Source of the DNA: Candidatus Omnitrophota bacterium
GTDB lineage: Bacteria > Omnitrophota > Omnitrophia > Omnitrophales > Aquincolibacteriaceae
Length of the DNA stretch: 64,000 bases
Assembly (NCBI GenBank): GCA_030698625.1
Contig: JAUYMS010000035.1
Location: 73,950-137,949, forward strand
Direction of reading: 5' to 3'
Positions 1 through 42,400 of the stretch are shown piece after piece; the first letter of the stretch is position 1, and every line of letters starts with the position of its first letter. The notes below the pieces were generated by a model. That model was given only the letters and a program-made list of their open reading frames with translations. It did not search any database and was not told the DNA's origin. Position numbers and translations under genes: made by a program.

Positions 1-1
1 A

Positions 2-3000
2 GAATGGATGCGTTTCAAGAAAAGTTATGACCAGGGAAAACTCTTGCTTATCGATTATCTCAAACGAAGCCAAGCCTTTGTCGATACAGCGGCCTATTCG
101 AATATTTCCCTACTCCTTGAGGCCGAACACTCAGAGGATGCGGCTCTTCACGAGCGCGCCAAAGCCATGGACGGAAAAACTTTCTTTGCGGAAATAGAGG
201 CCATGGAGCGGGATCTTGCGCGCTGTTACCTTGCGACTACGCGGGACAGAAATATCTTTAATTATTACCGGGTGTTGAGTCTCCTCAAACGTCTGAGTGC
301 GATTGAAGTCAGTGCCGAGGAATATCAGGCCGTCGCTTCGAGGCTGGCACATCTGAAAACGCGTAAGCTGGCCCGATTTATCGTCGGCGAAACCGGGGAG
401 ACCATTGCGTTGTCTAAGGAGTGGGAGAAGAATATCAGAAACGCCGTAAACTTCTATGAGCTGGCAGGTCGCCGTGACGACGCAATTGAGAAGTCGCTCG
501 CGAAATACCTGCGCCAGGACGAAGAGAAAGCGGCTGTCCTCGTATTCGGAGGTTTTCATAAGGGCCGTATCATTGAGATACTCCACCGCAGGGGTTTTTC
601 CTACCACGTCGTGGTTCCGAAGATTACGGGTGTCAGTTCACGGCATCAGGAGCAATACCGGAAACTGATGAGCCGGGGATACGACCGCTTTGAGATTCCC
701 GCGCGCGTGGCGAAGGCCGCCCGGCCGGCCAGTGATATCTCCGTAGTAACCGTCGACCCCCGTCAAGAACCTGCATTTCGCGCCGAGTTGCGTGTGCTGG
801 GGTCTATCGTGAAAAGCCTGCAGCGGCGCGGACAGAAGGCCGCACCGTCTGAGATAACGCTCCAACTTAAGAGCCGATCCGAGCTCCGGTCTCCCGACAG
901 AGATTCTAGATTTAAAGGCGTCAACGAAGGGTATTCTGCGGTTGTGATGCAGGTCTCCGAACCCGTTCGCAGCCGCATACTGCAATTTGGGAAAAAGATT
1001 CCGGGTGAGGATCTCTTCTTTCAGGAGTATGAAACCGATCTCGCGCGCGTCAAAGAGCCGCACATAACATTGCAGTACCGCATCGAGACGAACGATCCCT
1101 CGGAACTCGCGAGGGTGGTTAAAAGTTTTGGCCCGATTCGCGTGCGGCTCGGGAAAACCGGAATTTTTGAACGGCCCGATGCAGGTTACGACGTGGTCTT
1201 TCTTCAGGCCGAAGGGGAGAGATTGCATGACTTACACAACCTCATCGCGAACGACCTGGATCATGACAGCCCCTTTTTAGAATTCGCTCCCCATATCACC
1301 TTGGCTTATGTGAAGAAAGGCCTCGGGGTGAAGTACGACAGTATCAGTGAGCTGGAAGGTATGACCTTTGAGATTGATACGGTGAGCTTTGTGCAGGGGA
1401 ACGGTGACCAAACGGAGATTCGCCTGGCAGAGGAGAGCCCTGAGCCGTTTGCGCGTCCGGCCGAGGAGAAAGCGTCGGCAGCGATCACCAAGGCCAGAGG
1501 AATGCAAAGGGCCGTCGGTTCGGTTCAAATGCTCGACTTTGCCATTGCCGATGAAAAAATCACCACAATGCCGATTCCTCTTCAACCCAGGTTCGGAACG
1601 CGGGCATGGTTCGAATCTGCGGCAGGTCTGGTCCGCGAACTTGCCATCGGGCTATTCGTGATTACGGTATTTACGGCCCTGAACTTTTTTGTATACCTGC
1701 CCTGGAGCGCACCCCTTGTGGCGGCATCTCCGCTCATGTTCTTTCCAACGGCAATGCTTTTCGCCGTAGTGACTACCTATTTGGGAGGCTTTCTGGCCAA
1801 ACGATTCAAAACTTATTTCTCGCTCTCTAAGTATTTCCAGCCGGATCAGACCCTGCGCGAACGGATCTGGAACAACATCCGCGAAACGGTAATTCCTGAG
1901 AAAAAATTTGTCCGCATTATTCTTCAGACCTTTCTCTTCGGGCTGCCGGTCTACGGGTTTTTTCTATTTGGCTGGTATATTCCACACATCATACCGGGCG
2001 CCGGTCTTCTGCCGGCCTTGGGCCGTGCCGCATTCGTTCAGTTGCTGCTCGCACCCTTCTTTATCGATCCCGTTAACTATGTGGTTGGCCGCATATTTTT
2101 CGAGAAGAAGAGTTTTGCCGAATCTGTCAGGCAGGCCAGGAAGAATCTGCCGACGTTTACGCTCTCGGCTATTGTCGTTTGGTTAGGACCTACGATCTTT
2201 GCCCTTTACAACCCCAATGCGATCACCACATTCGTGTGGCTTGGAATCGCGCAGCTTATTTGGACAGTGATCTCACTTCTCCTGCTGGAAAAGGAGAAGC
2301 TCAATCTGAACACCAAGGTGAAGCATTTTCTGAAGCGCCGTTTCGGTATCGTGACGGATAAGAACAGCGACGGAGTTATCGGAAGAGTCGCTTGGTTATT
2401 CGATTCATTTTATAACCTGCCGTGGTTCGGCTTGTACATTCTGATTCTCGTTTATACGTTCTATTTTTCGACTTTTATCCATTTGGCAACTGTGATTTAT
2501 CTGACCCTGCAGAACCCCATCATTATCAGTGATGGTGTCGTAATCGGAATGCTGCTCGGGGGAATCGCATTCTATCCCTTTATTTATCCCGTATACCGGC
2601 GATTGATTCGGTATGAGGAAAGAATCATGGACAGGACACCGCTTAAGGGTATTTTTCAGCGGGGAGGTCCGCCTGCCTCGATCGGTGAATTTAATCGCAT
2701 GTCGAACGAACTTCATGAGCAGGCACGGATCCGGGCCGAATTTTTTGACGTTTTTGACGGCGCTGAGGCGAGAAGCCGGCTGACTGATGCTGAAAAGGGG
2801 GATCACCTAAGGCTTTCAGAGACACAGTGGAAACAAGAGAATCGCGGCTTTTCCTATCTGGAATCAACATGGTTGTTCAACAAGTACCGTGAAATATCGG
2901 CATTCGAATCTGCCGTCAGATTCTATGAAGAGTCGCCTAACCAAGTGTTTCGAAATAGTGACTCTGTTCGTGCGGGTTATGTGCTTGCGCTTCATCAAAT

Positions 3001-6000
3001 GGGCCTGAGTCAGATTTTTAATTCCCGTACGTCTTTGAGTGGAAGGCCTTACCTGGATCGGGCGTCGAGCGCGGCGCGAACTGCCATCAACGAACGTATT
3101 GAGGATGCAATGGCGGTCCCCCTCGTAGACGGCTATACCGTTTCGGACCTCGTCAAAGAGCTGGGGCGGCCTTATGACGCATGGCGACAACCGCAGGTGC
3201 GGCTGCTGGTTGATGCGTTCAATCGGAGATTTAATGGTGAAGACCTGTTCGCGGAACCCGAATTTCGCTTCAAAGACGGCCGATTGAAGACAGGAGCTCT
3301 GTTGAAGCGAGTGGAAGAAAAGGCGGATTTCGTCGAAGAGGCGATTTCAACGATCAACAAGAGGATTGTGGAATCCGTTTATCCCGATCTTTATCTGGGC
3401 CTTGCGGCGGCACATAAGAATAAATATATACTGACAAGTCTCCTGACAACGGAATTGAAGAAGCCCAAGCGAGACAGAAAAGTCGAAATGTTGGACAGAT
3501 GGTTTCTGCTCTATGACACCTATTTCCCGGAGGGACTGTTGAAACAGCAACAATTTCGAATGGAGAAGAACAATCTGAGCCCGTTGCGGGTGGTGGCGGA
3601 GTATGAACGGAATGCGCAGTTCGCGTCAGCTCTCATTGATGAGGTCGAGGCCAATGGTCACCGGGCCCTCTACCTCGCCTACGAGATCTACATGGAAGTT
3701 TTCAAACAGGATCTTCTCAATTACCACGCGGGAATGAATGTCGTGCGCGCTTTAATTTCCTTCGGGGGACCGGCGGATTTAATTCAGGCGAAAGAATTGG
3801 CGCTGATTGTGCGTACCTCCGCCGAACACGGGGGGCCGAAATCCTTCTGGCGAAATGCAACGCTCTTGGAGATGGCTCTGGTACAGAAAGATACGCGCCG
3901 GGTAACGCAGAGTTTCTCTCGGCTTTTGGAAGTCGTTCAGAACGATTCCGCCTATGAATCATTTCGCCGTCATCTCGAGCGATGGCGGGACTTGACTGTC
4001 AGCCGAGGAGAATCACACGACGAATTGGACTGGGTGATCAAACATCTGTCTTCGGTCGCCGCGAGCCGCTATAAAAGCGAGCCGGTTGAGACGTTAAGCA
4101 CGGCGGCGTCTGAGGATGGCCGGGCCCAGGCGATGGTACAGCTTATGAGGTCCAGAGAGCGGGCACGTGAGGATTCGGTCACTGAGACGATCGACAGGCG
4201 CGTGATACGCCTCGACCAGTACCGAACGGCGAATCTTCTTCCCAACAATATTGCTCAGGGAGGATTTATTGTCGACATCTTGGGCAGTACGGCAGACTCT
4301 GATCTGATTCAGGGCATCGTGGAGTACGACGTGCCGGGTGGCGTCTCGCTGAAGGATATCAAAGATCCGGAAGAAGCGGATCAATGGATCAACCATTTTG
4401 TCGATCGTGTTTTTGGCTTGGTGCAGTGGGATGACGCGCGGCAGGCCTATGTCAGGGTCTATGAGGACCTGGATCAAGTACAGCATCGCGAACTCGATGC
4501 CGTGATGACCGGATTTCGCGAAACGGTTGCGGCGCGCGTTTCGGAGAGAGGGACGACCAACGCCCTGGCAGCCGCGGCCATGGGCTTCGGTGATGCCCGT
4601 TACGTAAATTTCACGAAGCAGCGCCTAAGCGCCGCCAAGGCTCGATACGATCTTAAACGGGATTTGAGAAAGGCTCTTGATGAATTGCTTGTGAACAAGA
4701 ATGCCGATGCCTTCCGGGAGGCGCTAGTGGAAGCCGAGTCGAACAACGGCAGGGAATTCGCGATCGCCGAGATGGTCATCAAAGCGCCTATTGCGATGGG
4801 AACGGCAGGAACGGGCAAGCGTCTTATGGTTGAGGGTTCCGAAGGACGGCATCCGTTACTCGTCCGGGAGCTCAATGAGATTGAAGAAGAACCCATCGCG
4901 ATCGAGATCGAACGAGACAAAAGCGGTGTCATTCAGGCCGTCATCCTGAGAAACGGATGGTATCGGGATTTATACCGGTTCGGCTACCAGAGAATCGAAG
5001 GGGAAGACCTGGAAAACCTGAGATCCGGCGAAGGTTTGCGCGTTCGCGATGCCGTATCTGCCTATGACGGTGATGGCAAACTTGTTCCCAGTGATGTCTA
5101 TCTGAATTTTGCGCCCTATGCCGCGGACCGCCACCAGCGCACGCTGAGCTATACGGCGGATGGCTTTTATGTCGGGGGTCATCTTGTCGACAAGCCGTCG
5201 GTGGAGTATTTCTTTGACGACGATGCGCGTGCCGCGTTCAACAGCACCATGAGACGCTATTTGCAAACCGTCGGCGAAAGACACCAAAGCTCTGGAGTTA
5301 CTGAACGCTCCGAATTGAGAGTTCAGGATGAGATTCAAGTTGTGCGGTCCGAGCTGCGCGACGGCAAGGGGATAAATGTCTTGCCCGAACTTATCGCAGT
5401 GTCGTGGCTGTTGGTCATGGGAAATCCCGTCCAATCGGCGGCAGTGCTTCTCCCCGCATTCATATTCGCGGCCGCGATTTCACGGTTGGCTTTATTCGCG
5501 GCTATCGGAATCCACGGCTTGGGACATTCGTTGAGCTCGGTGCTCACGGACGGAAAATGGACGTCTGAAAAAGTGAATTACGGGGATGTCCTCAGAGGCC
5601 TCCTGCCTTTTCAGGAAATCCCAGCGCCAAGCCGGAGCGTTCGGGAGACAACACCGCAGGCCGATGCGGGTATTGAAGGTCCGGTACGGACTCGCGTTAA
5701 GGCGGCAAGCGGGATTTTCTTCAACGCGATTGCCGTTTATCTGCTTATTGCTTTCGGTCTGCCGGCCTCGGCGATCGCATTCAGTGGCTTCAGTTTACTC
5801 GGCGCGGATCTAGCCCTTTACGCATTGGCCGCGCTGGCGTCATGGAATGTCGTCTATGCGATCACATCGCTTGCGGATGTGCGCTCTATCCTGAGCGGGA
5901 AGGCGACTGTCTTTTGCTGCGGTGTCGTCGGAGCCATCGGATATGACGAAACGGACCTAATTAAAAAGATTCAGGCAATGATGTTCTTTACCCTTCTGCG

Positions 6001-9000
6001 GGGTCAGCAGGCCTTCGGTATATCTCAATTATTCCTGTATTCGGAAAGGGCATTTAGGCGCCTTGCCGTGGAAGGCGAGGGGATTCGAGACAGCGTCAGG
6101 GTTTTAGACGCTTATCAACCTGAAGAGAGCGACCGCATTGGTCCCAAGGGGATTAAGGTGCTCAATACCAAGCGTGGAAATCTGATACGCAGATTCGTGA
6201 GACGGTGGCTATTCTGGGGCAAGATATGGGAATTCGCAAACTTTAAACCCTTAAAGGGGTGGTTCTCGTTTATCGCGCATTCGCGGTACGCTACCGTAGG
6301 TCCGACTTCTAAGCTGGAAACCCATCCTCATTCCTGGATGGACCCGCGGCGTGTTGTTCAGTGGCGTGCTCAGGGCGATAAGCTGGTGGTCTCGGAGAGA
6401 ATTTTGAGTAATCGCATCGTACACAACGGCGACTTTAACGAGTTCAAGACTCTGTTTTATAAGTTCATGGGCAAGGAGAGGACGATCCCGGAGCTCAAGG
6501 CATGGCTCGAGCGCGTACTCAACACACCCAACGCAACGACGGGCGATTCGCCGAAGATTGCCGGCTTGATGGATTTTCTAATAACGCAAGGCATGTGGTA
6601 TTCCTCGGTACGATTTGCCTACCACACGGTTATCCCTGAATCATTCAATGATGTTATGGACGGTGAAATCCCCTCCGAGGACGATTTGACCTTTTGGGCC
6701 GCGGTTTTTGAAGATGCGTTTATCGAGACGCGAGACGAACTGCTTCGGGCCGATGCCCGATCCCTGGCGGACTATGACTCAGACGCAGTGGAAGCCTTGA
6801 TTCGGACAGTTACCGAGAGGATAAATCGAGATCCGGCGGTCTCCTTTCGCTTTCTGGGTCTTCCCTATGAGAAGCGAGAAAGATTCGCGCGGGCCTCGAT
6901 CTATGCCTTTTTGGAAAATGATTCCTACCGAGCTGCGCAGACGCTGTTAACCAACGCCTCGGATAACAGCACTTTTGGCTTGGCCATTCAGTCGACCACA
7001 GATGTGGACAAAAAACGCACGGTTCTCGTGACAAAGGCTCAGCCCATGATGATCAGCCGCGATAAGTCCAACGGGAATATCTATCATGCTTCCGAAGCCG
7101 ACGCCGCGAAAGCCAAAGAGCTGATCGATCGGGACAATCTCGAACTGTTTCGCATGGACCAGACAGGCGAAGCCGTGGCGATAGGCTTGGAGCAGAAGAA
7201 TGCGTATTCGCTGGCGACGAGGGCAGAAGTGCCCCTGGCGGTCGTCGAGCGCCGATGGGTTAGCGCCGAGGATAATCCGTATGTTTCAACCCCGCCGCCG
7301 GCGGAAGCAGTGAAACGGGGAGATGTGGACCCCATGACCCGGGATGTGCTGGGTATTCCCGCGGAACGGAAACGCGTTCGCGACGCTTGGGAGGGTACGA
7401 GTCTGGATAGAAATAATTTGAATCTTGAGGCGGCTGATAATTTCGCAGAAGACATGATTAAGAAGATCGCGGAGCAGCAGGCGTTGACAGAGACGACCGG
7501 AAAGGCCTATCGCGCGGCAACGCCTGACCTCTTGGTGGTAGGCCTGGAAAAAAGCGAATGGGTCGGCGAAAATTTTGTGAACAATTTCTCAAAAATTGCG
7601 CCTTTACCTATGCGAACGATCAGTTCAAATACCTTCCTGCGGGAGATCGTCAAAACGCATCAAACGCTCGTAGGTGAAAACACGACCGTTCTTTTTATCA
7701 GCGAATCGGGTCAGTCATTCCCGACCTATCAGGCCCTCGTAAAGGCGGAAGAATTGCGCAGAAAAGGCGCTATCGCCGAAACCTTTATTCTGACCCATCA
7801 ATTCGATACCGAAATGGCGGATGCCATCGGACAGGCATTCCATCGTAGTGCCCCTTTTACCGGCCGTATCTTTACGACAGGCTCCTGGCCTAGCCATGCC
7901 GAAGCCGCATCAAGGGCGGTGGTCGCACTCGATCAAACCCTGACGCAATTATGGCTTCACATCGCATCACGCATGGTAGAAAACGACATTCCGATTAGCG
8001 GCGCGTTACAACAATCCAGGCAATTACTCAGGGATCTTAAGAAAGACAATGGAGATCTTATTGCCGGAAGTCAGGCTGTGGTGGAGTCGGAGGATCTAAA
8101 GAGCGGCGCCTTGAAAACCGCATGGGAAATCAAGGCGACGGCGTGGACAACTATCTTTATGAAAGCCGCTATTTTTAGTACCGTCTTAGTCGGTTTTCCC
8201 GCAGTGACCGCCTCGATCTTGGGAATCTTAGGTTATTCCTTTGTGCAAGCCCTCGCAATCACGGAGGGGATCGCTCTCTCGGCCGTACTGCTCCGCCTTT
8301 TCGACACGTTCCTGTACACGTTTGGCGGAGGTATTATCATCGTCGGTTTGCGTGTCCTAGGCAAATGGCGGGGGAAGTCAAAAGGACAGATTGCCTCACG
8401 CGTCGGTATGTGGACCTTGGCGATCATCAGTGCCAGGAATCACCGCTTTCTCGGCCGGTTCTTGCGTGAAGGTTTTTCGCTTTCGCCGGGACTATTTACG
8501 ATCAACCCGGAAGCGGAAGATCCCGAAACAGCACTTCATGTCCTGCAGCCTCATCGAGGATGGCTCATTTTGTATGACCTCCCGAATGGGGAACTCAGTG
8601 AGGGGATGGCCTTGGAACAGCGCGCCGTGCTCAAACTGGCGCCTTCCTTCGAGGGCAATAGGAGTTTGGGCGCAACCCCGCAGAGCACCCTCCTGACAAC
8701 CGACGAGAAGTTAGCGGCCAAGTCAGGGCGACCCACGATTGTTCCTCACCGCTCCGAACTACGGCAGGAAGACGGTGCAGATCTTCGAGCCGACTTGATC
8801 GAAGGTCTCTTTGATTCTGCGATCCGCCTGGACGCCGGATACAGTTTTCTCAGCACGGTCATCGGCGAGACCGCGACATTGAAAATCCCGCTGTGGGGCA
8901 ACCTAAGGCTCTGGTCTTGGTGGCGGAAGCGCGGCGGCAAACGAACCGATCAAGCAGCACAGCCAGTCGGCCGAGGTGAGATTGATCCTGTCACGCAGGA

Positions 9001-12000
9001 TGTTCTGAGGATTCCGTCCGAACGCGGGCGTATCCTGAACGCCTGGACGATAGACTCGGCAGTGAACACTAAGAACCTCGCCCATGCGGACCGTTTCGCG
9101 GAAGCCATGAAAACGAAGGCTAGAGAATACCGTGAATTGGAGGAGACGACAGGGAGAAGGTTTGTGCTGGAAACACCGGATCTGTTGATCATTGGCCATG
9201 ACCAGGGGTTGTGGGCCGGTGAACAGTTCGGCGATAACCTCGAAAGAATCGCGCCCATCCATATTCGAACGGTAAGTGAAAATGTTTTCCGGCAGGAGAC
9301 GTCCAAGGCAAACCAAAAACTTGTAGGCAAGAATACAACCATCCTGTTTATCGACGAATCAGAATTAACGGAGTCGACCGATGACGTTGCCATGGGCGCC
9401 GGGAATTTTATCCTGACGCACCGTTTTGACGGCGAAACGCTCGGCGGGGCACGCGTCCTGACCACGAATGCACAACCGAGCCGTGCCGATATCCCGTCGA
9501 GGACAGTCGTCGCGCTGCAACAGACATTGACGCAGTTATGGTTACATACCGCAAACGCGATGGCGGCGGACGGCAGTGCTACTATGGGTTCGCCGGAGTC
9601 ATCAGCCGAGCTCCTTGAGTTGCTATACCATAAAAATTCTGAGACGGTCGCCGCAAGCGCCGCCGCGATTAACTCGGTTGAACTTCGAGAGGATGCGAGC
9701 CGGTGGGCGTGGGAAGTGAGGACGCGCGCTACGGTAGCCATCTTCATGAAAGCATTGGTTGCCGTAACGGTGTTTGCCGGTTTTCCGGTCTTCGCGGGCC
9801 TTGCGTCGCATGGGTTCGGCGTCCCTTTCCTGACAACGCTCGCAGTCGCAGAGGGGGTTGCGCTTCTTGTCTATCTTTTTAGACTCCTGGATACGCTGTT
9901 TTACAGTTTTGGCGGCGGGGTTATTGTTCTCATCTTGCGTGTCATCGCCAAACTAAGCGGTCATTCAACCGGGCAGATCATGTCTCGCATGGGTGCAAGA
10001 ACGATCGCGATCAGCGATCCGGTCAACCATCGCTTGCTTGGAAATTTTCTCCACAAGGGAGTTTCGCGTGCGCATGCCGTATTCGGCATCAATCGAGAAA
10101 ACGCGGATCCGGATGAAGCTCAGCACGGATGGCATCCCACGACGGCATGGCATGTCCTTCTCGGTGCGCCCGACGGAAGACGGAGTGAGGCCCTGGAGCT
10201 TGAGGAAGGTGTGATTACGGAGCTTGCCGATGCGTTTAGTCAGAATGCATACTTCGGAGCCAGACCGCAGATTACGACTCTGACCACGAATCCAAATTTG
10301 GCGGAAAGCACAACGGGTACGGTCATCGTGACGCGCGACGCCGCACCGGCATCAGATGCAGAAACCGACCTTTCCGCAGACTTGAAAGAGGGGTTGTTTG
10401 ATTCTTCGCGACGATTGGATGCGGGGTTTAGTTATTTGAGTACGCTTATGCGTTCTGTGGCGACGGTGAAGCTCCCGGTTCTAGGAGAGGTGAGGTTATG
10501 GGCTTGGTGGGGAACGCAGGCCGGAACAAAGACCGTGACCACGCCTTCGCCGTTCGAAGGCCCCATTCTGGAAGCAACGCGGACCCCGAAATTAGAAGAG
10601 ATTCCGGCCGAAAAGGAAGTGGCGCCGCTTACACTGCAGGCCGGGGGAGGCACCGTAACATCGGCCAGGTTCCAAATAAGAGAAACTCCTGTCTCTTATT
10701 ATGGCATTGCGTGGAAATTCTTTACCCGGGACGTCTTCGGCCACTTAACATTTCTCGTTCTAGCGAGCATCTTTTCCCTTTCGCTTCTCATGCACCCGTG
10801 GGCCATCATTCAATATGCGATCTTCTTCGTATCAATCCTCATCTTGGATCTGTGGAGCTACTGGCACACCACCTGGAAGAAAAATCCCAATCTGGGAGGC
10901 GCCATCACATTCATCATCTCCAGCATCTTTTTTCAGGGTCTGATGTACGTGATCGACCCGAATCATATCCTGGTGACATTTATCCCGGGCCTCTATCTGC
11001 ACCGGTACATCCTCATCCCCTTCGTAGTCCCTCTTCTATTGGCCTATGTGGGCCGGTTCCTCCTAAGACAGCGGGCCGATACCCCGGGGCGGGTTAAAAA
11101 GTACGTCACCCAAGAAATTCCAAGAGGGCGCTTTATCACGAGGCGCTTTATTGGCGATGAATATCCGAAGGCGCATCCGGCGCTGTTCCCTGACGGAACG
11201 GTGAGTCCGGCCTTCGAGCGGAACACGACAGCCGCCTATAATCTATTGATGGCTGCAGGACACAGGCATGAAGGGATTCAGTTCATCTTTGAGCGTATTC
11301 TACAGGGGATAGAGGAAGCGCAAGGCTTAGAAGGGCTTCAGAAGCTGGATCTTTCGTTCGACTTGGATAAAATCTTTCTGATCTACGCCGATACGCAAAC
11401 TTTATCAGGCGAGGCCGTCGTCAAAAAATATCTGCTTGGATTTAACCCAAGCCTGGCTGCTTTACAGAAGGATGAAACGGCCATGGATGAAATTCTCGCC
11501 AAATATGAAAACCTTACCAATGAGTTTACGGGCATTTTGGATTCCTCGGCTATATTGCAGCAGCTTCACCGGTTAGCCTCCCAAAACTTGGATGCCCTCA
11601 CCAGCAAAGAGGACATCCTGGCACTTTTGGCGAACTTTCTCGGCGGGCTTCGCCCAAGCAATGTGATGCTGCTAGAGCGAAGGCTTCAACACCTTGAAGA
11701 AGTCTTAAAGATTGTGGACGAAGAGCAGCGGCATGGCCGCTCCGAGCTGCGAAGCACGACGAGGCGTGAGTTTCTGAAGCAGTTAGCGGCGACGCCGATT
11801 GCTCTTCAGATGGCCGGTTGGGAACCGGCGGCGCGAACGGTGCAACCGATGAACTGGCTCGTGAAACATCTCGGCTCCAAACTCGCGCCGGAACTAACTC
11901 GTGCTTGGAAGAGAAGCCAGGACAGGGTCAACGTTCCCACTCTGCTGACGAAGGTGCTCTCGGTATCCTTCCGGGTCTTGCGGGAGCAGAGCGGTGTCTG

Positions 12001-13234
12001 GGCGGAGATCGTCCAAGACTCCGGCGAGTGGCCTGCGATTGACGCCGCCATTCGTACCGCTCACGCCGATGCCCGGAAGAAAATCGAAGGCGGGCATAGT
12101 GACTGGTCCTCTTTCGTTAATGACTATGAGCAGACCGACGGATTCCGAGGAGTCAAACACTGGTTGGAATTTAAGCAGAGGCCGCAAGATGTACAGGCAT
12201 GGGTAGAAGACGTCTTTGTCGACCACGAAATATCGTCCGCAATATCCGGCCGACTCACTCGATGGATTCGCCGCTTCGGACCCGATGCGTACCGCATCTT
12301 TAAAGACTTGTCCAATCTGCCATCGCGGGATTTGCGGGAGTTGCATGATGCCGTGAGTGAGAGGAAAGCGATTCCCCGGTACGAGGATATTCAGAAAGCG
12401 ATCCCGAAGCTGAGGCAGTTGAGGGAGAATCAGAAAAGCCTTTGGGACGATATCCACTGGCTTGAATCTCACGCGGTGTGGCTGCGAGGACACGGTGAAG
12501 TGAATAATATCGATGTCGCATTTCCGCCCGAGTGGCTTAAGGAAATGCAAGAGAAGAGGCAGGCCGCGGAGCGTGTGAACCAGGAAATCGAGGAAATTAA
12601 GCGGAATGCATTCAAAGAACGGTCCGAGCTGAGATCAACCCTACCGCCCTTCCGGGACGCTGATGTGTCTCATGCTCTCCAGACTTTAGATGTCAGTGCG
12701 CGGGGGACTCTCACGATGCCGGTGGCGACCGTGGCCGCGCTTGTGCGTTCGGAACTGCGCGGCGGTACAGAAGCGGAAGCCGCGCGGCAGATCTTAGACG
12801 AACTTTATTTGGTGGCTTATCGTTGGAAGAAAGTTCGTATTTACTTCTACGGCAATACCGGAAACAATCACTCCCGGACAGAATACTATCTGTCACAATT
12901 GAGCCGGCTGTCGAATGTGGCTGTTACCGAAGCCGGTGTCGTCGAGACCCTCTCGCTGCGCGGGGAAGATGATCACGTCTCAGTGGATATCTCTGAGGCG
13001 GGGATACGGCCGACGAGCGGTTTGATGCCGAGCCGGCTGAAAGAGCACTTGAAGTTCGTGAAGTTACGGCAGCGGCCGGGCTTAATCCTCATGTCACTCT
13101 GGGTTACGCTGACCCAAGGCTCAGCCATCGGCCGGGGCGTCCACGAAGCAGACGGCTTCTTAGAGCCGCAGACGGCTCTGGAACAGCAATTTCAGGCCTA
13201 CCTAAATGAGCAGGTCGTTGAGTGGTCGGCGTAA
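2..13234 (+). CDS. Giant multidomain RSELR protein 1 (5' end outside window)
   Basis: The frame is open from base 2, so the ATG at 8 is internal; the first visible residues align with the middle of the N-terminal domain of the giant gene at 52618. Residues below count from that ATG. Order: C-terminal half of the TraB/Tiki-like domain (1-255, GGFH with H184); RSELR; 2H phosphoesterase (300-485, HITL at H352 and H429); about eight membrane segments (535-875) with some Mpv17/PMP22 resemblance; a long helical region; RSELR twice (1767, 1780); degenerate M50-like membrane domain (HGLGH 1836-1840); GlmS-like glutamine amidotransferase (Cys1971); two tandem SIS-plus-membrane units; another membrane block (3555-3690); RSELR followed by a Tat signal (R3919-R3920); then two more RSELR copies and an unrecognised C-terminus. 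The mix of cytosolic, membrane and exported modules is odd for one chain. Reading frame is certain; overall function is unknown. Confidence 0.9.
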   Translation, partial: EWMRFKKSYDQGKLLLIDYLKRSQAFVDTAAYSNISLLLEAEHSEDAALHERAKAMDGKTFFAEIEAMERDLARCYLATTRDRNIFNYYRVLSLLKRLSAIEVSAEEYQAVASRLAHLKTRKLARFIVGETGETIALSKEWEKNIRNAVNFYELAGRRDDAIEKSLAKYLRQDEEKAAVLVFGGFHKGRIIEILHRRGFSYHVVVPKITGVSSRHQEQYRKLMSRGYDRFEIPARVAKAARPASDISVVTVDPRQEPAFRAELRVLGSIVKSLQRRGQKAAPSEITLQLKSRSELRSPDRDSRFKGVNEGYSAVVMQVSEPVRSRILQFGKKIPGEDLFFQEYETDLARVKEPHITLQYRIETNDPSELARVVKSFGPIRVRLGKTGIFERPDAGYDVVFLQAEGERLHDLHNLIANDLDHDSPFLEFAPHITLAYVKKGLGVKYDSISELEGMTFEIDTVSFVQGNGDQTEIRLAEESPEPFARPAEEKASAAITKARGMQRAVGSVQMLDFAIADEKITTMPIPLQPRFGTRAWFESAAGLVRELAIGLFVITVFTALNFFVYLPWSAPLVAASPLMFFPTAMLFAVVTTYLGGFLAKRFKTYFSLSKYFQPDQTLRERIWNNIRETVIPEKKFVRIILQTFLFGLPVYGFFLFGWYIPHIIPGAGLLPALGRAAFVQLLLAPFFIDPVNYVVGRIFFEKKSFAESVRQARKNLPTFTLSAIVVWLGPTIFALYNPNAITTFVWLGIAQLIWTVISLLLLEKEKLNLNTKVKHFLKRRFGIVTDKNSDGVIGRVAWLFDSFYNLPWFGLYILILVYTFYFSTFIHLATVIYLTLQNPIIISDGVVIGMLLGGIAFYPFIYPVYRRLIRYEERIMDRTPLKGIFQRGGPPASIGEFNRMSNELHEQARIRAEFFDVFDGAEARSRLTDAEKGDHLRLSETQWKQENRGFSYLESTWLFNKYREISAFESAVRFYEESPNQVFRNSDSVRAGYVLALHQMGLSQIFNSRTSLSGRPYLDRASSAARTAINERIEDAMAVPLVDGYTVSDLVKELGRPYDAWRQPQVRLLVDAFNRRFNGEDLFAEPEFRFKDGRLKTGALLKRVEEKADFVEEAISTINKRIVESVYPDLYLGLAAAHKNKYILTSLLTTELKKPKRDRKVEMLDRWFLLYDTYFPEGLLKQQQFRMEKNNLSPLRVVAEYERNAQFASALIDEVEANGHRALYLAYEIYMEVFKQDLLNYHAGMNVVRALISFGGPADLIQAKELALIVRTSAEHGGPKSFWRNATLLEMALVQKDTRRVTQSFSRLLEVVQNDSAYESFRRHLERWRDLTVSRGESHDELDWVIKHLSSVAASRYKSEPVETLSTAASEDGRAQAMVQLMRSRERAREDSVTETIDRRVIRLDQYRTANLLPNNIAQGGFIVDILGSTADSDLIQGIVEYDVPGGVSLKDIKDPEEADQWINHFVDRVFGLVQWDDARQAYVRVYEDLDQVQHRELDAVMTGFRETVAARVSERGTTNALAAAAMGFGDARYVNFTKQRLSAAKARYDLKRDLRKALDELLVNKNADAFREALVEAESNNGREFAIAEMVIKAPIAMGTAGTGKRLMVEGSEGRHPLLVRELNEIEEEPIAIEIERDKSGVIQAVILRNGWYRDLYRFGYQRIEGEDLENLRSGEGLRVRDAVSAYDGDGKLVPSDVYLNFAPYAADRHQRTLSYTADGFYVGGHLVDKPSVEYFFDDDARAAFNSTMRRYLQTVGERHQSSGVTERSELRVQDEIQVVRSELRDGKGINVLPELIAVSWLLVMGNPVQSAAVLLPAFIFAAAISRLALFAAIGIHGLGHSLSSVLTDGKWTSEKVNYGDVLRGLLPFQEIPAPSRSVRETTPQADAGIEGPVRTRVKAASGIFFNAIAVYLLIAFGLPASAIAFSGFSLLGADLALYALAALASWNVVYAITSLADVRSILSGKATVFCCGVVGAIGYDETDLIKKIQAMMFFTLLRGQQAFGISQLFLYSERAFRRLAVEGEGIRDSVRVLDAYQPEESDRIGPKGIKVLNTKRGNLIRRFVRRWLFWGKIWEFANFKPLKGWFSFIAHSRYATVGPTSKLETHPHSWMDPRRVVQWRAQGDKLVVSERILSNRIVHNGDFNEFKTLFYKFMGKERTIPELKAWLERVLNTPNATTGDSPKIAGLMDFLITQGMWYSSVRFAYHTVIPESFNDVMDGEIPSEDDLTFWAAVFEDAFIETRDELLRADARSLADYDSDAVEALIRTVTERINRDPAVSFRFLGLPYEKRERFARASIYAFLENDSYRAAQTLLTNASDNSTFGLAIQSTTDVDKKRTVLVTKAQPMMISRDKSNGNIYHASEADAAKAKELIDRDNLELFRMDQTGEAVAIGLEQKNAYSLATRAEVPLAVVERRWVSAEDNPYVSTPPPAEAVKRGDVDPMTRDVLGIPAERKRVRDAWEGTSLDRNNLNLEAADNFAEDMIKKIAEQQALTETTGKAYRAATPDLLVVGLEKSEWVGENFVNNFSKIAPLPMRTISSNTFLREIVKTHQTLVGENTTVLFISESGQSFPTYQALVKAEELRRKGAIAETFILTHQFDTEMADAIGQAFHRSAPFTGRIFTTGSWPSHAEAASRAVVALDQTLTQLWLHIASRMVENDIPISGALQQSRQLLRDLKKDNGDLIAGSQAVVESEDLKSGALKTAWEIKATAWTTIFMKAAIFSTVLVGFPAVTASILGILGYSFVQALAITEGIALSAVLLRLFDTFLYTFGGGIIIVGLRVLGKWRGKSKGQIASRVGMWTLAIISARNHRFLGRFLREGFSLSPGLFTINPEAEDPETALHVLQPHRGWLILYDLPNGELSEGMALEQRAVLKLAPSFEGNRSLGATPQSTLLTTDEKLAAKSGRPTIVPHRSELRQEDGADLRADLIEGLFDSAIRLDAGYSFLSTVIGETATLKIPLWGNLRLWSWWRKRGGKRTDQAAQPVGRGEIDPVTQDVLRIPSERGRILNAWTIDSAVNTKNLAHADRFAEAMKTKAREYRELEETTGRRFVLETPDLLIIGHDQGLWAGEQFGDNLERIAPIHIRTVSENVFRQETSKANQKLVGKNTTILFIDESELTESTDDVAMGAGNFILTHRFDGETLGGARVLTTNAQPSRADIPSRTVVALQQTLTQLWLHTANAMAADGSATMGSPESSAELLELLYHKNSETVAASAAAINSVELREDASRWAWEVRTRATVAIFMKALVAVTVFAGFPVFAGLASHGFGVPFLTTLAVAEGVALLVYLFRLLDTLFYSFGGGVIVLILRVIAKLSGHSTGQIMSRMGARTIAISDPVNHRLLGNFLHKGVSRAHAVFGINRENADPDEAQHGWHPTTAWHVLLGAPDGRRSEALELEEGVITELADAFSQNAYFGARPQITTLTTNPNLAESTTGTVIVTRDAAPASDAETDLSADLKEGLFDSSRRLDAGFSYLSTLMRSVATVKLPVLGEVRLWAWWGTQAGTKTVTTPSPFEGPILEATRTPKLEEIPAEKEVAPLTLQAGGGTVTSARFQIRETPVSYYGIAWKFFTRDVFGHLTFLVLASIFSLSLLMHPWAIIQYAIFFVSILILDLWSYWHTTWKKNPNLGGAITFIISSIFFQGLMYVIDPNHILVTFIPGLYLHRYILIPFVVPLLLAYVGRFLLRQRADTPGRVKKYVTQEIPRGRFITRRFIGDEYPKAHPALFPDGTVSPAFERNTTAAYNLLMAAGHRHEGIQFIFERILQGIEEAQGLEGLQKLDLSFDLDKIFLIYADTQTLSGEAVVKKYLLGFNPSLAALQKDETAMDEILAKYENLTNEFTGILDSSAILQQLHRLASQNLDALTSKEDILALLANFLGGLRPSNVMLLERRLQHLEEVLKIVDEEQRHGRSELRSTTRREFLKQLAATPIALQMAGWEPAARTVQPMNWLVKHLGSKLAPELTRAWKRSQDRVNVPTLLTKVLSVSFRVLREQSGVWAEIVQDSGEWPAIDAAIRTAHADARKKIEGGHSDWSSFVNDYEQTDGFRGVKHWLEFKQRPQDVQAWVEDVFVDHEISSAISGRLTRWIRRFGPDAYRIFKDLSNLPSRDLRELHDAVSERKAIPRYEDIQKAIPKLRQLRENQKSLWDDIHWLESHAVWLRGHGEVNNIDVAFPPEWLKEMQEKRQAAERVNQEIEEIKRNAFKERSELRSTLPPFRDADVSHALQTLDVSARGTLTMPVATVAALVRSELRGGTEAEAARQILDELYLVAYRWKKVRIYFYGNTGNNHSRTEYYLSQLSRLSNVAVTEAGVVETLSLRGEDDHVSVDISEAGIRPTSGLMPSRLKEHLKFVKLRQRPGLILMSLWVTLTQGSAIGRGVHEADGFLEPQTALEQQFQAYLNEQVVEWSA
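905..1440 (+). other. 2H phosphoesterase (LigT-like) module in giant protein 1
   Basis: This module starts directly after the first RSELR. It carries the two HxTx signatures of the 2H phosphoesterase superfamily, HITLQ at H352 and HITLAY at H429, about 77 residues apart, as in LigT, CPDase and 2'-5' RNA ligase-like proteins. Those enzymes hydrolyse 2',3'- or 1'',2''-cyclic phosphates. The substrate cannot be read from sequence. Both catalytic His and Thr residues are present, so an active enzyme is plausible. Confidence 0.75.
5360..5905 (+). other. Degenerate M50 (site-2 protease-like) membrane module
   Basis: After the RSELR at 5345 come hydrophobic segments, then HGLGH (1836-1840) where M50 intramembrane metalloproteases have HExxH. 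The general-base Glu is Gly. A later membrane segment has an Asn pattern (FFNAIAVYLL) and a third contains NVVYAITSLADV, roughly where M50 has its N...LDG motif. It is probably a catalytically dead relative. The module ends about 25 residues before the amidotransferase Cys. Assignment rests on motif spacing only. Confidence 0.5.
5912..7318 (+). other. GlmS-type class II glutamine amidotransferase module
   Basis: The key GlmS glutaminase motifs appear in order: CGVVGAIG with nucleophile Cys1971, RGQQAFG (from 1998; GlmS RGYDSAG), HSRYATVGP...HPH (from 2091; GlmS HTRWATHG...HPH), HNGDFNE (from 2139; GlmS HNGIIEN) and a C-terminal part ending in DPMTRDVLGIP, matching the HYMQKEIYEQP joint. The family releases ammonia from glutamine and feeds it to a SIS-domain isomerase. 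In GlmS the Cys is residue 1 and its free amino group is the catalytic base. Here it is deeply internal, so activity would need cleavage just before it. There is a large insertion between the RGQQ and HSRY motifs. Confidence 0.8.
7319..8926 (+). repeat. SIS-plus-membrane unit, copy 1
   Basis: First of two tandem units offset by about 1,656 bases (552 codons). It opens with the GlmS-like joint DPMTRDVLGIP, then a SIS fold with a good phosphosugar-binding loop FISESGQS (around residues 2563-2570; GlmS has TLSQSGET) and a helix like GlmS ASTKAFTTQL. Three or four membrane segments follow, then a soluble tail. An RSELR at 8750 sits inside the tail of this copy. Confidence 0.75.
8975..10514 (+). 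repeat. SIS-plus-membrane unit, copy 2 (degenerate)
   Basis: Second tandem unit, collinear with copy 1 from DPVTQDVLRIP through the membrane segments to the Trp-rich end. The sugar-binding loop has decayed to FIDESELTES and part of the SIS domain is deleted. The position matching the RSELR in copy 1 reads TRDAAPASD, so the motif is absent here. It probably keeps a structural role only. Confidence 0.7.
11738..11850 (+). other. RSELR followed by internal Tat-type signal peptide
   Basis: RSELR (11738-11752) is followed after three residues by TRREFLK, a match to the twin-arginine consensus S/T-RR-x-F-L-K (Arg3919-Arg3920), then a moderately hydrophobic stretch (LAATPIALQMAG) as in Tat leaders. 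It lies about 3,900 residues inside the protein. Confidence 0.7.
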
Positions 13235-36418: not shown

Positions 36419-39400
36419 ATGCGGACTATGGCTAAGCCCTATCTCTATCGTGCGATCGCCGTACTCGTTGCGACGACGTTTTTAGTGTCGGATCTTACGC
36501 TGCCCGCGTACGCGCAGGAGACGATCGGGGCGCCTTCTTTGGAGACAATCCCCGCCGATCTTTCATCCATTGACGTCCCTGTCGATTTAGGCACGGTTGA
36601 AGATTCCTTTCAGGGGAATACCGGTAAAGTTGTTGTGCTCATACAGGATGCCCACTCGATTCCCGATGCGCAGCGAAGTGTCCGGGAACTTATTAACCAT
36701 TTTCAATCACGGTACGGCGTTTCGTTGGTCGCTGTCGAAGGCGCTGCCTCCCGGCTCGATGCCCAATTATTTAAGAGTTTCCCCGACCAGCAGTTGCTCA
36801 AGGAAGTCATTTCCGAATACCACGCTGAAGGAGAAATTGCCGCAGGTACAGAAGCGGCGCTGTTTAACGAAACAGCGGCTGTTTATCACGGAATCGAAGA
36901 CTGGGATCTCTACGAAGAGGGACTTGCGCATTACCTCCGCACGACCGAACTGCAGGCTCAAATTACCGCAAGTCTTGAAACCCGCCGCGAGGTTCTGGAA
37001 GCAGAAAAGGAAAAAGTTTATTCCGAAGAGCTCCTCGGCATCGACCGGATTCTGCAGGGATTTTACGCCAATGACAGCGACTTGCTCGAACTCGTGCAAG
37101 CGCTGGCGCACTACCTGAAACCCGATTCCGATACGGAAGTGGCCCTTCTTTTGGCAAACAGTGAACGCGATCCCGACGGTGCGGTTTCCCTTGAGGATGA
37201 AGTCGAAGACATGGCCTGGCGTATCAAGACGGAATTGGCCGCGCTTGACGCAGCCGGGGACCTCAAGGCCCTCAACCGGAAAAGCCAAACCTTCTTTACC
37301 TCAGAAATCAATGCCGAACAGATGGCCCTTTTTCTCGATGAGATGTCGGCCAAGCACGGGCTGAGTTTTAAAGCCTCGCCGGTGATGCGCCGGCTCATGC
37401 AACGGCATCGCCGCCTGCGCGATCTTAGCGGAAGCCGCTTTTTCGAAGAGCTCAATCGATACATCGGGGATGTCAAAGAATCCGTATTTCGCACGGATGC
37501 CGAACGCGGCTTGGACGGCGAATTCGAAAATTTGAGGTTACTTTTCAAGCTCTCGAAGCTTGAAGTGAGTTTTGATGAGTGGCAGAAGTTGGGTGCGAAT
37601 GATGCCGTTCCTCAGGAACTAAAATCCCTTTTTGAATCGCACCGCGCTTTTTACGAAAACTCCGAGTCTCGTGACGATGCCTTTCTCGGCAATCTCACGA
37701 AGCTCATGAAACACCACGATGCGGCCGTCCTCGTGGCCGGCGGTTTCCATACCGACGGCCTGACCCAAAGATTCCGCCGGCACAATATCTCTTACTTGCT
37801 CCTCGCTCCGCGTATTCCTTCGATTCCGGAAAAATCAAGATACCAAGAGCAAATGCAGGGAGAGGTCAGCTGGAAGGATTATTTCAGGGCCGAGGACGGC
37901 CGTATCAATCTTTACGAGGCCTTCGCACGGGCAACCCGTGACCGACTGTTGGAGCGAACCACGGCAGGTTCTCGCGCAGAAACCCTCAAGCTCTGGCGCG
38001 ATGAAATCATCCGTGATTTGGCCGCGCGCGGTGAGGTTGAGAGAGCGGGCGAACATACGCGGCTGTTGGACGAAGTCAATGAGGCACAGGCAGCCGGGAA
38101 TGAGTGGCAAGAGAAGTGGATGGCCAATATCAACGGTTTTTTCAAAGGCCTGGAGCGCTTGCAGATCAACGGCGAAATGAATCAGGCCAATGTGCTAAAG
38201 CTCCTGCAGCCGGCGAACATGATAGCGGCCCGCACCGGCCCGGCCCAGTTGAGTTTGGGCAATCCGGGCCTTGCGATTTTTGCCGCGCCGCTTACCGCGA
38301 TCGATCGATCCGAGTTAAGAAATGAAGATGGGATGCCGGAGCCGATGCAAAGAGTCCTCGCGGACGCGGCAGGCAAGATAAACCGGACTGCCGCCATCGA
38401 CGACGAAGTGCTGAAGAAATACAGCAGGTCGCGTGAGGGTATGCGCATGAGCATTTTCAGGCAGGCGCTGGCGGATCTCGTGACTGCGGGTTACTTCGAG
38501 GGTACGGAGTTTCCTTTTCTTCTCTCCGGCCTCGTCAATAATACCCAAAAGGAATTCCAATTTTTTTCCAAACGGATTCGGGACAGTGCATCCCTGCGGG
38601 AAGTTATGACCCGGCTCTGGCAAATACACCGCAAATACAGTCGTTTTGTCGATGACGTGAACGAACGCATTCTGGCTCAGGCCCCGATCGGAGAAGATGG
38701 AAAAGTTCTGGGGCTTGTGATGCAGGTCATCGAGGAGCAAAATGACGAACAAACGAACCCGCTCTATTCCCGGCCCGACGGATTCATCATTCTCAACCTG
38801 GCGGCTCTCATCGACAGCGCGCGTGATGTGTACGGAAACGAATCCGTCGCCCACGAGGCCGGGCACGGCATGGCCCATTTGATCGATAATGTACCGTCAA
38901 ACCTTCCGGAGCACTTGGAGCTCGCAGCCAATTGGGCTGCGGCGCAATTCGCGGGAGTCGAGGCGATGGCCGCTTATGCGAACCAGGTCTTGGACGCGCA
39001 CATTCGTTCGAGCGGCGCAGATCGCGTTTATCCCTATTTTGCTACGCCGATTCTGGTCTTTGCCGAAGAGGCAGGCATTCGGCTGGAACGAGAGGATGTG
39101 GCCAGGAAGAATGCGGACAAGAGCCGTATCGAGGCCTACCGTCAATACTACCGGAGCCTCGCGTGGAAAGCGAGCCGTTCGGGTTCCGAGCGCTCCGAAC
39201 TTAGGGCCGGTACGAGCTTTTGGAAGTCAAAACGTTTATGGGTCAGCGCTGTCTCAGCCGGACTTTTGGCATTTGCACTATGGAGGTCAATACCGCCGGG
39301 AGAGGCGCCGCAGCTTGAAGCTCCTCAGGCAGAACCCCGCCAAGAGCAGGTCGTTGCAGAAGACCCGCCGGTCTCCGTAGCGCCGGCAGTGGAACCCGCT

Positions 39401-42400
39401 CCGCAGGAAGCAACCAAAGAGGAACCCGTTGTTGAACTCCCTGCGCCCGTCGCGGTGGTCCCGGCCGAAGAAGCTCCGGCGCCCGGCGAATTGACCGATG
39501 ATGAAAAGAGGGTCATCGAAATCGCGCGCCGCCACGGAATTGAAATTACTCCCGAAGAATATCGTGAAATGATTCAAATTCTAAAGGCGAGCCAATCGCG
39601 TGACATCGATTACCGCGTTAGCCACGAAGCGGCATTGCCTGCGGCACAGCACTTGATTCCCGGGGCGGCTCAGATATTTGGTGAAGGCGAAGGATTGTCC
39701 CTTACGGGGGATGAGGCGTTAAGCGCCGAGGATTGGGTGGCGAAAGCCATTGTGCCCTGGATGATGATTTATGGCGTGGACTACCACGAAGATTCCTGGC
39801 AGCAACGGGAGTTTATGGATTCTCTGCGCTATGCCCAGCCGATTACTCAAAAGGCACTCACCGATATGGTCAATGCGGGCCAGATCACTAAAGATGACGA
39901 GCTTCCGGATCTTTGGCGCGGGCTCGGCTTTTTGAATGTGCTCGACGACGATGAATGGGTTGTGCTAGACAATGAGTGGAGTAAGGTCCCGCGAGTGAAA
40001 TTCAAGAGCTATATGGGTTTTCTCATGATGACGGCTCTTTTGGAATACCAGCATCGCGTGGTTGAGCAATGGGGATACCCCGAGCTCTTTCCGCGCGGCC
40101 CCGAACACTGGTATCTGCCGCAGAATTTTTATAGCGAACTAGTCTTTTCGTTGAATAATGAAAACTTCGACCTCATGAAAGCGCGGATATTCGAGCGCAG
40201 GATCTCGGAACAATTCACCCGTATCTATTTCATGAATATGCATCGCGATATATGGCACGACCTCTATGTGCCCGCTGAAATCAGGCTGCGGGGTCAGTTG
40301 CGGGAAGCTTACCCTCACCTCGCCCTCCGGATGGCCGGCGACCCGGAGAGCCAATGGCGTGTTAACTCGCTGTCGGACAAAGAGGTCTCCCGTTCTATTT
40401 TCTTTCAGGTCTTATCCGAGCGTTCATTTTGGCCGGAAGGTGCAACCACGATTCGTGAAGTCATTGAGAGTGATATCTTTCAGCGGACTATCGACCGTCT
40501 CCTAACCCTGCGCAGCGAAGGTCTCATCGCCGATTACTATGCTCCGGGCAATCCGCCCGAGATGCGCCAGATACTGGCGAATCTTCAGGCGGGCCGATAC
40601 GCCGTCCTTGTGGAGTCCGGCCTGACAGGGAAAATCAGGGATATGGATAGAATTGAGGCTGACTACATTCTCGGAATCGATTTTGCGAACACCTTGCCGC
40701 TTGATGCTATTCGCCTCCGGGCGACAGCCGAGAGAAACAATAGTATTACCGAACCTGATGATTATGATGTTCGTCAGCGGCTGTTACGTGATCTTGCCGT
40801 GGAGACGGCCTTTGGCCTGGATTTCGGCGCGCACTACACGGGCGCGCGTGAGATGGCGGAAAACGAATTCGATATGGAAGCCCTCCGGGCTCTTTATGAC
40901 CAGCGGACCGACATCGAGCCCGAACTCGAGATGTTCTGGGGCCGCGACCTCAACCGCAACGGCCGTCATGATTCCGGGGTAATCAACGGCAGTAACGGGG
41001 CGCGCAGGCGCCTCGAAATTCCCATGAAGTATTGGGAACTGATCCTCATTCTTTCTTCTGTTCCTGAGGGAGAAGACCTGAATCTCCGTCCGGATATTCA
41101 ACGGCATGTCCGCGAACTCTTTTCGGCTATGACGCATCACCCGATGTGGGAACAGGAATTCAACTTTGATGATGAACGGACCGGTTCGGTTCAGGTCGGT
41201 GCCGTCATCGGAACGACGACAAACCTTTTAATTGACGGGTGGGAAGACCCCGCGGCGAGACTGCAGGCGCTCGCGACGATCTTCCGGGATCCGGCGACGC
41301 ATCCCGTGGTTGATAGCGTAGGTGATCCGGTGATGGTGGACGGTCAGGCGGTTGAGCGTACTCAGCGTGAGACGATCATACGCTATGGCGTGAGAATGCA
41401 TCACATGTGGCTCAATGAAGCCCGGCCCTCAGAGGCCCAGATGCAGGAAATTATTGCGAGTTTCGAGACAGACCCCCTGGCGATTCGAAAGTACGGCCCC
41501 GAAGTCATCGCTATGGCCGAACACTTTGCCAAGTCGACAACGGACTGGGAAACGACTCAGAGAGATCAGGAAAGAGTGACCGTTCGCCTGGAGTCCGGAG
41601 TGCAGGCGCGTTCGGAACTTAGGTCAATGGAAGAGATCTATGCCCGGACTTTGGAGGAATACGCCGCGGGCATTTACAAACTTGAAGACCGTATCTTTGA
41701 ATTGCGCGCCGACGAGGGAGTGGTCGACAGCGGAATTTCAGACCTGATTAATCTGCACATGGGACCGGATGTATTTCGGGATCCGTTAAAGCTCTTGATT
41801 CTGGATCACGCCCTGTGGCGTTTAGCCGAACCCGGCGCAATTCGCCCTGAAGTGATTATGCAGGCCATTACCATGAACGACAGCCCTGCTGACCAGTTGA
41901 AAAGGGCATTGCTCATCGATGTGCTCGGAAGATTTATGGGATTGAATCCCAAATATGACGGTTTTTTCAAAGGGGTGCCCGACATGATGCCGGAAAATGA
42001 GCCGGCTATGGCAGCCGCTCGGCGAGCCATTGAAAGGCAGGGAGGAGAGAAATTGATCGGAGAGCCGCCGAGCCGTAAAGATGACGAAGATTTTATGAAG
42101 GCGATCGCGGCACAGCATGTACCGATTCTGCCGAGAGCGACTCTCGAAAACGCACTCCTGCCCGTAACGGGCCCTGAAATCCTGGGCTTCATCTTTATAA
42201 ACGGGAATGGACAGGATAAAGAGGTCGAGCTTGAAGGCGTTAAGATCTCGACGAAATCCCTGCAAATGAGTAATCCGAGAACTGAGCATATGTTTCAGGT
42301 GCTGCGCCGCAGCGTCGCCGACAGCTCCAAGAACGGAGTGCCCGAGAGTTTTGAGAAGTCGGCACAGGTGCAGGCAATATTTGCGAGGCCCACCACCGAA

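Follow-up and report, generated by a model that had tools for sequence, protein, structure and literature searches.

What does a short, recurring word do inside proteins of several thousand residues, and why does a twin-arginine leader directly follow it, far from any N-terminus? The window analysed here, a 64,000-nucleotide stretch within contig C50 of a 3.52 Mb Omnitrophota genome (G000, 95% complete), raises both questions. It contains all or part of three giant ORFs, of a kind that measures 4,000 to 10,000 residues in this genome, each punctuated by the pentapeptide RSELR (Table 1). The statistics given below are based on whole-genome pattern counts and on fetched stretches totalling 589 kb of G000. 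The N-terminal segment (the head) of giant 1 begins upstream of the window, which leaves out its signal peptide and its first half. The region between giants 1 and 2 (13206-36284) contains many genes for PAS, histidine kinase and response regulator proteins, together with an adenylate/guanylate cyclase gene.

Table 1. Positions of giant ORFs, heads, RSELR words and leaders in the window
Feature	Position	Strand	Remark
Giant ORF 1	8..13234	+	4408 aa inside the window; frame extends ~210 residues upstream of it
Giant 1 head, C-terminal part	1..874	+	contains GGFH
RSELR ending the head of giant 1	875..889	+	
RSELR in giant 1	5306..5320	+	
RSELR in giant 1	5345..5359	+	
RSELR in giant 1	8750..8764	+	
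RSELR preceding the Tat-type leader of giant 1	11738..11752	+	
Tat-type leader STTRREFLKQLAATPIALQMAG...	11753..11850	+	weakly hydrophobic; probable fossil N-terminus
Segment between two RSELR	11753..12619	+	289 aa; predicted product
RSELR in giant 1	12620..12634	+	
RSELR in giant 1	12746..12760	+	
Giant ORF 2	36419..50455	+	4678 aa, nine RSELR
RSELR in giant 2 (starts)	38306, 39191, 41609, 43184, 43805, 45743, 47792, 48992, 49559		
Giant 2 head	36419..38305	+	signal peptide and Tiki/ChaN-type domain; H79, E107, R418, GGFH444
RSELR and clearer Tat-type leader LTRRSFFPAAAAGAAAFYATVTGASA in giant 2	43805..43897	+	
Giant ORF 3	52636..64000	+	leaves the window; ~9100 aa in all
RSELR in giant 3 (starts inside the window)	54013, 54142, 54541, 55711, 56272		
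Giant 3 head	52636..54012	+	weak match to ChaN/Tiki (PF04187)

Twin-arginine leaders behind RSELR

The RSELR at 11738 is in the frame of giant ORF 1 and is directly followed by STTRREFLKQLAATPIALQMAGWEPAARTV. The original prediction had placed TRREFLK three residues behind this RSELR and a hydrophobic stretch behind TRREFLK. Both elements are present, with two corrections: TRREFLK starts two residues on, it being the RR pair that starts three residues past RSELR, and the hydrophobic stretch is weak, with a best 15-residue Kyte-Doolittle mean of 0.97. No clear AxA cleavage site was detected in this leader. A much better leader follows the RSELR at 43805; here RSELR-LTRRSFFPAAAAGAAAFYATVTGASA has a good hydrophobic core and runs into ...GASA.

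It had also been claimed that the combination of RSELR and a Tat leader exceeds chance, and the count proposed to check this bears it out. In the RSELR-bearing giant ORFs fetched from G000 (139,062 residues, 192 RSELR) the strict twin-arginine pattern [ST]RR.F[LFIVM] occurs six times, and all six copies lie 1-13 residues after RSELR, while positions up to 15 residues after RSELR make up 2.2% of the total (binomial p 1.2e-10). With a looser pattern, six out of ten matches follow RSELR. In relatives two strict motifs were found, neither of them after a punctuation motif. Hydrophobic segments in general are also commoner behind the word: one lies within 30 residues in 12 of 158 cases, compared to 2.9% at random positions, a 2.6-fold excess. 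At a stricter threshold none was found in the 60 residues before RSELR. Most segments that follow RSELR are without any signal peptide.

These associations would be expected if, as the original prediction proposed, the giants were cut at RSELR in the cytoplasm and the products were targeted by their own new N-termini, Tat leaders included. We regard that model as improbable, since, besides the lack of a signal sequence on most segments, TatC (PF00902) was not found in G000 and no free-standing Tat leader was found in the 589 kb. TatC is present in 32 of the 47 genomes of the order; its absence from G000 falls short of proof because the genome is incomplete and some of its bases are masked. Masking affects, for example, ~5000 bases at positions 1-5000 of contig C7. 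It is thus improbable that an internal Tat signal still works here, the leader at 11753 included. Judged by sequence, the Tat-type leaders are probably fossils of the starts of captured proteins: proteins formerly exported by Tat would, once captured, have kept remnant N-termini as twin-arginine leaders behind the motif. Read as old N-termini, they support the view that RSELR is a junction placed before a former N-terminus. The N-terminus interpretation is supported as regards RSELR standing where a protein unit begins; a present role of the leader as an export signal finds no support. Methionine, a possible trace of old start codons, is not enriched after RSELR.

A strict word between protein units

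An unbiased DNA pattern scan of the whole genome gave 218 matches to RSELR against 14 in the reversed control. Composition statistics were obtained from 17 giant ORFs (106,572 residues), which contain 158 copies where 0.3 are expected. Permuted orders of the same letters occur 0.5 times on average, and each single-substitution variant is found 0-2 times, which equals background. Outside the giants RSELR was present in one short ORF only, among the 884 ORFs in the stretches examined. Copies are separated by 11 to 2783 residues and the segments have a median length of 507. The flanks of the word are polar; the residue that follows it is S, A or T in 58% of the cases, and acidic residues come next.

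At the DNA level the word is anything but uniform: the 158 copies are encoded by 131 distinct 15-mers, and outside the five codons their surroundings show hardly any resemblance. This indicates that selection acts on RSELR at the protein level. It also argues against RSELR being a functionless DNA scar left by repeated gene fusion or by a mobile element, as do the absence of decayed copies with one substitution and the fact that spelling changes in concert between genomes. One feature would fit such a scar: the serine codon is TCN in 153 of the 158 copies, while AGY accounts for 40% of the serine codons elsewhere in the same genes. This bias suggests that the copies descend from one another, or that they pass through alanine (GCN), which relatives use at this position. 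On balance we consider a DNA scar very improbable.

Comparison of relatives showed that the core of the device is R-x-E-x-R, mostly in the form R-[SA]-E-x-R. The spelling is RSEVR in G004, RSEMR in G017, RSEVR/RSELR in G013, RSE[TVI]R in G006, RAELR/RSELR/RSEMR in G037, RSELR/RAELR in G031 and RSELR/RSEQR in G011. In G043 it is R-[NP]-E-x-R, R.E.R being present 19 times against 0.8 expected. Motif counts clearly exceed the control in families f1, f6, f8 and, for some members, f3; little or no such excess is found in families f2, f4, f5 and f7 or in other classes.

Blocks of homology between giants contain five motifs inside them where 21.4 are expected, and none of 2000 circular shifts gave a value as low; for at least two of these five, the partner has RSEVR or KSELR at the equivalent place. 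No Pfam domain was cut by the motif among the domains detected in the scanned giants. In four genomes a dehydroquinate-synthase-like (DHQS-like) cassette is bounded at both ends by the genome's own spelling (RSELR/RSELR in G000, RSEMR/RSEMR in G017, RSEVR/RSEVR in G001 and RSELR/RAEMR in G037), while its neighbours differ. The 394 aa between the two motifs constitute a complete enzyme, with the cyclase 4p53 as best PDB match; free-standing homologues, found in most relatives, are mostly 350-420 aa long. It is for this one family that units were shown to be complete as separate proteins elsewhere. A tandem pair of DHQS-like copies is present in a single motif-bounded segment of G001, with no motif separating them.

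Taken together, it is most likely, judging from sequence, that RSELR punctuates an exported polyprotein. Two properties of the units count against this reading. Some intervals between motifs are just 11-48 residues long, and units resembling enolase, helicase, AAA and methyltransferase proteins occur in the giants; enzymes of a cytoplasmic type would be odd outside the cell. For the segment that starts with the leader at 11753 we found no homologue in public genomes and no Pfam or PDB match. Around 5870-5990 of the window giant 1 has a membrane segment that includes HGLGH; behind it comes CCGVVGAIGYDETDL, similar to the N-terminal nucleophile start known from glutamine amidotransferases of class II. 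Downstream of its first RSELR this giant has a single pair of cysteines, located in the same place. In a giant of contig C13 (residues 4497-5000) two RSELR enclose an enolase C-terminal domain and, after it, part of an enolase N-terminal domain, an order that would reflect either a circular permutation or two partial copies.

The head domain and probable export of the chain

Nearly all giants start with a segment that is conserved by homology from giant to giant and between genomes. Its N-terminus is a Sec-type signal peptide, as judged by eye, and H79, E107, R418 and GGFH444 are invariant in 28 heads. Nine of these 28 match PF04187 (ChaN, Tiki superfamily), the best at 2.6e-5 and none above the curated cut-off; each of the other families matches one head out of the 28, and a profile search of the PDB revealed no homologue of the head.

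Past the first RSELR the giants are almost devoid of cysteine (22 in 96,014 residues, or 0.02%, compared to 0.96% in 83 other ORFs). All 22 cysteines have another one no more than 10 residues away, where random placement would give 0.1. Most long ORFs of relatives that bear the motif or are led by a head are cysteine-poor as well. Segments resembling transmembrane helices amount to 0.7 per 1000 aa in the giants and 4.9 in other ORFs. Since cysteines are nearly absent, and paired where present, and a signal peptide stands at the N-terminus, the giants look as if they are exported as one chain. We therefore infer that they leave the cytoplasm whole. The cysteine-free composition typical of exported proteins is common to all units, which is a further argument against cutting in the cytoplasm.

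Sampling of 145 Omnitrophota genomes revealed head-led ORFs in 84, so that the head must be older or wider than the motif. That the head family reaches far beyond the motif also counts against the polyprotein reading. In G039, for example, a head-led ORF of 16,199 residues contains one cysteine and no R-x-E-x-R punctuation, and the motif was absent from that genome under every spelling tried. Uncut giants are thus viable, and R-x-E-x-R could be a docking or anchoring word for a partner protein on giants exported uncut, each of them a multi-enzyme coat or scaffold. An extracellular coat role has been proposed for other Omnitrophota (PMC10066038). Yet the motif is placed at the borders of units and before fossil N-termini, and it is a short, linear word with polar flanks and a small residue next to it, all of which fits a cut site better than a docking site; the 11-48 residues between some copies also count against docking. 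We consider this alternative unlikely, although less so than cytoplasmic cutting.

Our preferred reading, which we hold to be probable with moderate confidence, is that the giants are exported polyproteins in which a signal peptide and a Tiki/ChaN-type head lead the units and R-[SA]-E-x-R is the protease site between them. The whole chain would be exported by way of the Sec-type signal peptide of the head, and cutting at R-x-E-x-R would take place outside the cytoplasm. Cleavage after the last arginine of the motif is the most likely position, because of the small residue and the acidic residues that follow it.

Candidate proteases and comparison with known systems

The cutter would be an endopeptidase acting in trans or in cis, possibly the Tiki-type head itself. 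The head is a candidate because endopeptidases are among its known relatives (PMC6254334); its candidacy is weakened by the fact that heads also lead motif-free giants such as that of G039. Several established protease families were considered and rejected. Clostripain (C11) and gingipain (C25) had no match in the order, the C25 search having been run without a positive control. Caspases (C14) are present in just 3 of the 47 genomes, and trypsin-like S1 proteases are missing from the motif-rich genomes G011, G013 and G037. G000 has two caspase-like (PF00656) genes, on contigs C41 and C34, and elsewhere in the order two genomes contain the family.

More tentatively, and with somewhat less than even confidence, we propose that this bacterial lineage may carry much of what it exports as dozens of giant polyproteins, each with one signal peptide and cut at the five-residue word, and that the spelling of this word co-evolves with the protease, possibly the Tiki-type head. 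By marking the borders of the units, the strict punctuation word resolves giants that were unreadable into series of proteins of normal size, open to annotation, expression and testing, and it gives a view of export by uncultured, probably host-associated bacteria. Should cleavage be confirmed, a cellular organism would be using polyproteins as a strategy on the scale of its genome, and the natural variation in the spelling of the cut site should help to reveal the protease.

Giant ORFs of Omnitrophota have been described before, with a function called poorly understood (PMC10066038; PMC11573180), among them one for a 39,678-aa protein of 'Ca. Velamenicoccus archaeovorus' (PMC10066038). They resemble the present ones in phylum, in exceeding 20 kb, in having few annotated domains and in their unclear function. 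PMC10066038 treats adhesion, coat or predation, and the words polyprotein, protease and cleavage are missing from it; the R-x-E-x-R punctuation reported here was detected in some families of a single order. Within open-licence papers, preprints apart, we found neither a description of RSELR as a motif, the matches being three papers on alginate lyases, nor a polyprotein reading of Omnitrophota giants.

Features of the head that recall the Tiki/TraB/ChaN/erythromycin-esterase superfamily are a late GxxH and a His-Glu spacing of 28 (H79, E107), which is also that of Bcr135 (H85, E113) and RRSP (H3902, E3930) in PMC6254334. It differs in having Asp (Asp77) in place of the first Glu of the catalytic 2His/2Glu set, two residues ahead of H79, and in the ~300 residues that separate its conserved parts; its activity is a prediction from sequence.

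Viral polyproteins are processed by a dedicated protease at a short, strict cut word between separate units, and this word drifts with lineage. The giants likewise join separate units in a row, and the word between these is again short, strict and spelled according to lineage. They differ in being cellular, exported and encoded by dozens of ORFs per genome, with cutting that is predicted. The light-harvesting polyproteins of dinoflagellates and Euglena are cellular and have short linker words between their units. Those units are copies of one protein, however, whereas the units of the Omnitrophota giants are unrelated enzymes. MARTX toxins, which are autoprocessing and multi-effector, are large exported bacterial proteins from which several enzyme units are released by proteolysis (PMC6254334). 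Unlike MARTX, the system described here comprises many different giants per genome and one strict, probable cut word common to them.
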